Below, one piece after another: positions 55,196 through 56,772 of a DNA stretch of 64,000 nt. The DNA comes from Meiothermus ruber DSM 1279 (GTDB lineage Bacteria; Deinococcota; Deinococci; Deinococcales; Thermaceae). The notes beneath the pieces were generated by a model. The model was not told the DNA's origin and searched no databases. It worked only from the letters and a program-made list of their open reading frames with translations. Numbering within the stretch: position 1 is the first letter of the stretch; the number at the start of each line of letters is the position of its first letter. Position numbers and translations under genes: made by a program. The stretch lies in assembly GCF_000024425.1 (NCBI RefSeq), contig NC_013946.1, positions 1,736,001 through 1,800,000 of the forward strand, written 5' to 3'.

Positions 55196-56772
55196 ATGGA
55201 GCTGGCATGGGTTGGAGCCGCCTATGGGTTGGGCTTGCTTGCAAGCCGTCTTGGACTGCCACCGCTGGTAGGCTACCTCGGGGCGGGCTTCACGCTGTGG
55301 GGTCTGGGCTACCAAAACAGCCCCTTACTGGAACAGATCGCCGATGTGGGCGTATTGCTGCTGCTTTTCACAGTCGGTCTGAAGCTCCGTTTTGCCAGTC
55401 TGGTGCGCCTGGAGGTGCTGGGCGTAGGGGGCCTTCACCTGGTGCTTTTCGGCCTGCTTCTGGGCCTGATTGGGCTTCTGTTGGGAATGGGCCCCAATGC
55501 CGCGCTCTTTTTAGGGATTGGACTGGCCTTCTCCAGCACGGTGCTGGCCGTGAAGCTGCTCGACGACCGCCGGGAGCTTTCCACCTTTCACGGGCGGGTG
55601 GCGGTTGGGATTCTGGTCTTGCAAGACCTGGTCGCGGTGGGCCTGCTGGCCTACGCGGGGGTCAAGAACCCCACGCCCTGGGCGCTGCTGCTGCTGGCCC
55701 TGCCCTTGCTGCGACCTTTGGTGGGTTGGATCCTGGAAAAAAGCGGCCACGATGAGCTCCTGTTGCTCTACGGCCTGGGCCTGGCCCTGGGGGGGCCAAC
55801 CTGGCCCAAAATCTGGGGGTATCGCCCGAGCTGGGTGCTTTGCTGATAGGGGCGGCCCTGGCCGGTCATCCGCAAACCTCGGAGTTGTCGCGCACCCTGT
55901 GGGGCCTGAAAGAGGCCTTCCTGGTGGCTTTTTTCCTGCAAATTGGGCTGATGGGTCTGCCCTCCCTCTCGGCACTCCCCCTGGCCCTGGTGTTTATACT
56001 CCTGCTCCCCCTCAAAGCCGCCCTCTTTTTTGTGTTGTTTGTCCTCTTCGGCCTGCGGGCCCGCACCGCTTTCGTGACCAGCGTGTCCCTGGGTAGCTAT
56101 AGCGAGTTTGCCCTGATCACCAGCGTGGCCGCCGTGGAGGCCGGCCTCTTACCGGAGTCCTGGGGTCAGTTGGTGGGCTTGGTGGTGGCGATCTCGCTGG
56201 CCCTGGCGGCCCCGCTCAACCGTTCGGTGCACACCCTGTTTCAGCGCTACGAGCGGTTCTTACTGCGCTTCGAGCGTAAAGGTTTGCACGCCGACGACGA
56301 ACCCACCAGCCTGGGCGGGGCCGAGTGGCTGGTGGTGGGCATGGGCCGCACGGGTGGGGCGGCTTACAAGATGCTGACCGGGCAGGGCTACCGGGTGCTG
56401 GGGCTCGACGCCGACGAGAGCAAGCTCGAGTTCCACCGGGCCAAAAACCGCCAGGTGCGCTATGGCGACGCCGAAGACCCCGAGCTATGGGAACGGATCG
56501 ATCTGGACGGGTTGCGCGGAGTGCTGCTGACCCTACCCGACCTCGAGGCCAAGCTTCGGGCCGCCCAGGGGCTCAAGCAGCGGGGCTTTTCGGGGGTCAT
56601 CGCCGCAACCAGCTATCACCGCGAAGAGGATCCACTCCTGCAAGAAGCCGGGGCCACCCTCATCTCCCGGCCCTTTGCCGAGGCCGGGGAGCGCCTGGCC
56701 GAACGGGCTCTGGGTATCAACCTGGTCGAAGAGGCAGAAGACCCCAAACCCACCGAGACTGCGGCCAGCTAA
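55196..56772 (+). pseudogene. Kef-type cation/proton antiporter split by a -1 frameshift at G7
   Basis: Two frames together encode one CPA2/Kef-type antiporter with a C-terminal TrkA-N (RCK) domain. Frame 1 (55196-55846) gives the first helices up to LLLLYGLGLALGG, then shifts into unrelated residues and stops at TGA 55844-55846. Frame 2 continues the family sequence from ANLAQNLGVSPELGALLIGA through to a TrkA-N domain (AEWLVVGMGRTGGAAY) and ends at 56772. The break is at seven G (55789-55795); eight would keep the frame. It may be a real mutation, phase-variable, slippage-expressed or a sequencing error. The downstream half has no good start codon, so it is unlikely to be translated alone. 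Confidence 0.85.

Follow-up and report, generated by a model that had tools for sequence, protein, structure and literature searches.

A one-base-short G tract splits a Kef-type antiporter gene in the Meiothermus ruber DSM 1279 genome record

Has Meiothermus ruber DSM 1279 lost an antiporter, does it switch or recode the gene at a run of G, or does its genome record simply lack one base? The question is raised by a gene in the window, that is, the whole stretch of 64,000 nucleotides that was analysed, which corresponds to bases 1,736,001–1,800,000 of the single 3,097,457-base contig. At 55196–56772 of this window (forward strand), the antiporter gene is split by a tract of exactly seven G at 55789–55795 (first G at C1:1791789 of the contig).

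The two halves of the gene and their joined product

The upstream half is an ATG-initiated open reading frame of 216 amino acids (55196–55846, forward strand), delimited by the list of open reading frames, its translation, Pfam and the orthologues. About 200 of its residues are native and the following 16 are read in a shifted frame, which the sequence and its translation show to be closed by the tandem stops TGA-TAG at 55844–55849 (forward strand). This half carries a Na_H_Exchanger domain, at about 55232–55657 on the forward strand, that scores 65.7 bits against a Pfam cut-off of 26.2. The downstream half (55795–56772, forward strand), recognized from its translation, Pfam, the orthologues and dN/dS, is open from 55795 up to a stop at 56770–56772. 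It contains the remainder of the membrane domain, which scores 21.6 bits for Na_H_Exchanger in Pfam, below the cut-off of 26.2, and 39.1 bits in the genome search, as well as a C-terminal TrkA_N/RCK domain at about 56329–56667 on the forward strand (57.7 bits in Pfam, cut-off 23.8). Adding one G to the tract joins both halves into a 525-amino-acid CPA2/Kef-type protein with an RCK domain.

That the two halves correspond to one and the same intact orthologue in every one of the 17 other genus genomes is not due to chance. The frame break at the G7 tract is confirmed in the sequence, which as written encodes a truncated 216-amino-acid product and no complete antiporter. A preliminary description of the locus had proposed that seven G break a Kef-type antiporter that eight G would make complete. 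Our data bear out both statements: the seven G were verified, the open reading frames, Pfam matches and orthologues agree on the break, and the joined 525-amino-acid protein corresponds to the G8 form carried by the three nearest sisters.

The best solved-structure match of the joined protein is KefC (PDB 8bxg; phmmer E 2e-30, residues 3–496), and E. coli KefC and CPA2 antiporters likewise have an antiporter membrane domain and RCK in one chain. Unlike E. coli KefC, however, the M. ruber gene is split by a frame break, and its read-through protein scores far under the NCBIfam cut-offs for the KefC equivalog (156.7 vs 752), the KefB equivalog (131.8 vs 804) and the CPA2 subfamily (104.4 vs 238.3). 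Because of these scores, "Kef-type" is to be taken broadly, and we draw no conclusion as to the substrate or the regulation of the antiporter. A second PF00999 antiporter, at G000 C1:621228-622340, is intact, with an open frame of 432 amino acids, and is the sole other match to this family found in the genome.

Conservation of the gene, of the tract and of selection

Some antiporter match was obtained in 57 of the 61 genomes searched (M. ruber DSM 1279 included), and a full-length copy with an uninterrupted frame is present in all 17 other genomes of the genus. Our tract alignment comprised 29 orthologue loci, among them those of the 17 congeners: at the tract site, G8 is found in six of these and an in-frame G9 in one, whereas in the other ten no run exceeds five. 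The three nearest relatives (G013, G008 and G011, with protein identities of 97, 96 and 95%) all have G8 in frame, such that the tract length differs between species, being 7 in M. ruber DSM 1279 and 8 in these sisters. Given the ten congeners without a run above five, the tract appears to be a by-product of Leu-Gly-Gly-Ala codons rather than a retained feature. Elsewhere in the family, two genomes from a different genus have antiporter matches in two pieces, divided away from the tract site (G021 C36:5854-7343 and G029 C4:1834134-1835608), and the best antiporter match in G035 is just 49% identical. Judging from these matches, the gene may be broken or absent elsewhere in the family (G021, G029 and G035).

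To the selection acting on the two halves, we applied NG86-type counts of dN/dS between the window gene and its three nearest sisters, with two sister–sister pairs as controls. The N half gave 0.037–0.054 for the window gene vs sisters and 0.019–0.032 for sister vs sister, and the C half gave 0.065–0.116 and 0.080–0.089, respectively. Changes present only in the window copy of the C half amount to 5 amino-acid and 15 synonymous substitutions. A decayed pseudogene does not fit these values, as dN/dS against the sisters reveals no relaxed selection and the C half contains no further stop. The preliminary description had read the downstream half as good coding sequence to the end of the RCK domain, with no other decay, and its open frame and sister-like dN/dS agree with that reading. 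Since both halves keep the purifying-selection signature of the intact sisters, the break must either be very young or be confined to the record. By its substitution pattern, the C half belonged until very recently to a functional protein under selection, or still does, and a very young pseudogene may be compatible with the lack of decay. A gene whose break is bypassed during expression would, however, show the same lack of decay.

Proposed recoding and switching at the tract

A bypass that the preliminary description did not consider is −1 ribosomal slippage, for which the register fits exactly. The upstream frame runs over the tract as CTG GGG GGG CCA, which places the slippery heptamer G_GGG_GGG at 55789–55795 (forward strand). 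If both glycine tRNAs slipped by −1, translation would resume with GCC at 55795 and yield exactly the G8 protein. This register is no evidence of programming, since it arises automatically for any G7 placed there. RNA structure downstream of the tract was not unusual in the three windows evaluated (z 0.80, 0.27 and −0.46), and no Shine-Dalgarno-like stimulator was seen by eye upstream of it. Moreover, the tract is unconserved, and none of the 17 other congeners has a two-frame arrangement, all of them reading the gene in one uninterrupted frame. A review mentions very low-level frameshifting on a seven-G run in a herpesvirus thymidine kinase gene (PMC5009743), a precedent from which trace rescue of the antiporter is conceivable. 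We nevertheless regard it as highly improbable that a real G7 is offset by ribosomal slippage yielding small amounts of full-length protein.

The preliminary description had instead drawn an analogy with dnaX of Thermus, whereby RNA-polymerase slippage at the G7 would add a G to part of the mRNA. T. thermophilus dnaX is an established case of transcriptional slippage (PMC1088944), M. ruber keeps the A9 run of that gene, and the dnaX run of Thermus and Meiothermus is also a homopolymer within coding sequence. The analogy fails on the nature of the two runs. The dnaX A9 run is kept in all 15 informative Meiothermus loci (L181 and 14 others of L174-L190; two further loci are truncated by the end of their contig, and another listed one does not qualify as dnaX by the cut-off), whereas the antiporter run consists of G and is unconserved, the long run expected for programmed slippage of the dnaX type being absent in 10 of the 17 congeners. 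In addition, the literature consulted on bacterial RNA-polymerase slippage mostly concerns A/T runs (PMC1088944, PMC6260861), and for the E. coli polymerase the minimum is a run of seven T or of eight A (PMC6260861). Slippage by RNA polymerase is, accordingly, the explanation to which we give the least credence. The comparison provides a reusable test, in that conservation throughout the genus separates a real slippery run, such as the A9 of dnaX, from an accidental one.

Phase variation, also raised in the preliminary description, would require G7 and G8 to interchange within the population and thereby turn the antiporter on and off. The length difference between M. ruber and its sisters and the location of the tract in a membrane-protein gene are consistent with such a switch, and T. 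thermophilus reportedly has an excess of G/C runs of 7–8 (PMC2831843). As in the phase-variable poly-G genes of other bacteria, the frame is set by the number of G; unlike in those genes, the tract is unconserved, no population mixture is known, and runs are not generally unstable. A phase-variable locus is expected to keep its tract in relatives, whereas 10 of 17 congeners have this one interrupted, and the gene is in frame in every one of the 17.

The stability of runs was assessed between 1.2 Mb of M. ruber (G000 C1:1200001-2400000) and 1.2 Mb of the sister G008 (C1:800001-2000000), of which 872 kb aligned. In the M. ruber segment, G/C runs number 271 at a length of exactly 7 and 65 at exactly 8, so a length of seven is ordinary. 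We compared clean runs of at least 7, meaning those without internal substitution, and excluded 245 runs with a substitution in the aligned block, 7 of these with a gap. Among the 121 clean runs, 106 are 7/7, 14 are 8/8 and a single one, the antiporter tract, is 7/8. Equality in the other 120 argues against phase variation, though 119 of the 121 are coding, so that frame selection also holds their length. Long G/C runs are moreover depleted in coding sequence relative to synonymous shuffles, both in M. ruber (60 vs 94.2 for runs of 8; 5 vs 47.0 for 9 or more) and in G008 (45 vs 83.2 and 2 vs 40.1), a depletion that fits hazards rather than switches. General hypermutability is likewise unsupported, since the MutS and MutL frames are open. 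On these grounds, tract switching seems to us even less probable than ribosomal slippage.

Leaky recoding and phase variation thus remain very unlikely even when taken together, and we give the same low weight to a "pseudo-pseudogene" in which a real G7 is offset by −1 slippage or tract switching that keeps a low, perhaps regulated, level of antiporter in this thermophile. Should the G7 be real and the protein still be made, the locus would exemplify frameshifting on a run of G in a thermophilic bacterium.

Possible consensus error or very recent mutation

The reading that we favor, with high confidence, is a one-base shortening that is non-programmed and a singleton, and that comprises either a consensus error or a very recent mutation. 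An ancestral G8 in an otherwise normal gene for an RCK-bearing CPA2 (Kef-type) cation/proton antiporter would have become the G7 of the M. ruber DSM 1279 record, either through an isolated consensus error in the finished genome of 2010 or through a very recent slipped-strand deletion in the sequenced strain. We infer that nothing restores the antiporter frame in the cell; against this stand the −1 register, which could restore the protein, and the fact that a bypassed gene would show no decay either. Where the preliminary description had offered "recent, reversible or an artefact", the first and last options stand and the second is left without support by the unconserved tract and its position as the sole length difference among 121 runs. 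In its overall interpretation, likewise, plain mutation and artefact survive, and phase variation and RNA-polymerase slippage are not supported.

Single-base homopolymer frameshifts in finished genomes, whether young pseudogenes or consensus errors, have the same features, namely one missing base, intact orthologues in near relatives, no other decay and occurrence as a singleton, and we found no respect in which the antiporter case differs from them. In the M. ruber literature consulted on the genome, transcriptome and proteome, frameshifts, phase variation and pseudogenes, we saw no mention of this antiporter gene.

Under a consensus error, the cell would have G8 and an intact antiporter, and the 2010 assembly would have dropped one G; we rate this at close to an even chance. 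The C half without decay is in line with it, and a survey expects singleton frame breaks in genes with homologues to be sequencing errors and not genuine indels (PMC3711429). According to the genome paper, 454 reads were a main source (27.4x), and the stated error rate of less than 1 in 100,000 leaves room for some errors, but 9.84x Sanger coverage and Illumina polishing were also used (PMC3035268). The same paper counts 38 pseudogenes (PMC3035268). For the strain, a 454 run (SRR017780, PMC4671558), a PacBio set (SRX260496, PMC4348652) and a second DSM 1279 record (CP005385, PMC7448439) are named in the literature. For comparison, a Newbler assembly of 454 reads has been reported to contain 3.65 indels per 100 kb against the M. 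ruber reference (PMC4671558). Our run comparison weighs against undercalling as a general fault, since the sister has the same length at all 14 other clean 8-base runs and at all 106 7-base runs. Systematic homopolymer undercalling in the assembly is rejected on the basis of the 120 of 121 clean runs of at least 7 that match the sister, and it is also contradicted by runs of at least 9, which are not fewer than in G008 (6 vs 3 in 1.2 Mb each). The run comparison counts, in short, against systematic undercalling and general instability, and not against one slip.

Further evidence on this point comes from a screen of M. ruber and G008 for genes intact in one of them but split in its counterpart. 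Hits reached 75% identity or more for 744 and 728 queries, and the screen yielded 23 candidates broken in M. ruber and 22 broken in G008. Requiring both pieces to have at least 45 amino acids and 78% identity left 7 and 6, respectively; two of the candidates failing this filter were read individually. On inspection, two of the seven in M. ruber are real genes with single-base breaks, the antiporter and a gene of 929 amino acids, and by eye the others resemble antisense frames, intergenic stretches or 5' extensions. In G008, none of the six can be put down cleanly to one single-base indel, and the three that were read resemble antisense frames by eye. The second gene (929 amino acids in G008) is split in M. 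ruber at G000 C1:2110195 (locus L078), again at a G run one base short. It encodes TPR repeats and a DUF2325-like end that scores under the cut-off, and it is full length in 15 of the 17 other congeners, including G008; none was found in G013, and G005 has a fragment. That M. ruber has two conserved genes with a G run one base short, and the sister none under the same screen, tilts the balance slightly toward a consensus error, although the numbers are small and the difference of 2 vs 0 is not significant.

The other form of the favored reading is a real, very recent replication-slippage deletion of one G in the sequenced strain, which would make the gene a young pseudogene. To this we assign a substantial probability, somewhat short of even. 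G runs are natural slippage sites, and the depletion of coding G/C runs of at least 8 against synonymous shuffles is as expected for hazards. The gene is also not universal in the family, given the two genomes that match in two pieces and the one whose match is at best 49% identical, and M. ruber has the second, intact PF00999 antiporter. Against a deletion, the gene is kept by all 17 congeners and shows no sign of relaxed selection, for which reason a mutation would have to be very young. Between the two forms we infer a slight preference for the consensus error. In either case, a single base is too little ground for recording the type strain as lacking the antiporter or for describing the gene as a switch.

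Two minor observations concern other runs. Apart from the tract, a G run flanked by identical sequence is of unequal length in M. ruber and the sister (6 vs 5, at C1:2018262) and lies in what by eye is a hairpin-like stretch. A/T runs of 6–7 are enriched relative to synonymous-codon shuffles in both M. ruber and G008 (1.2 Mb each).
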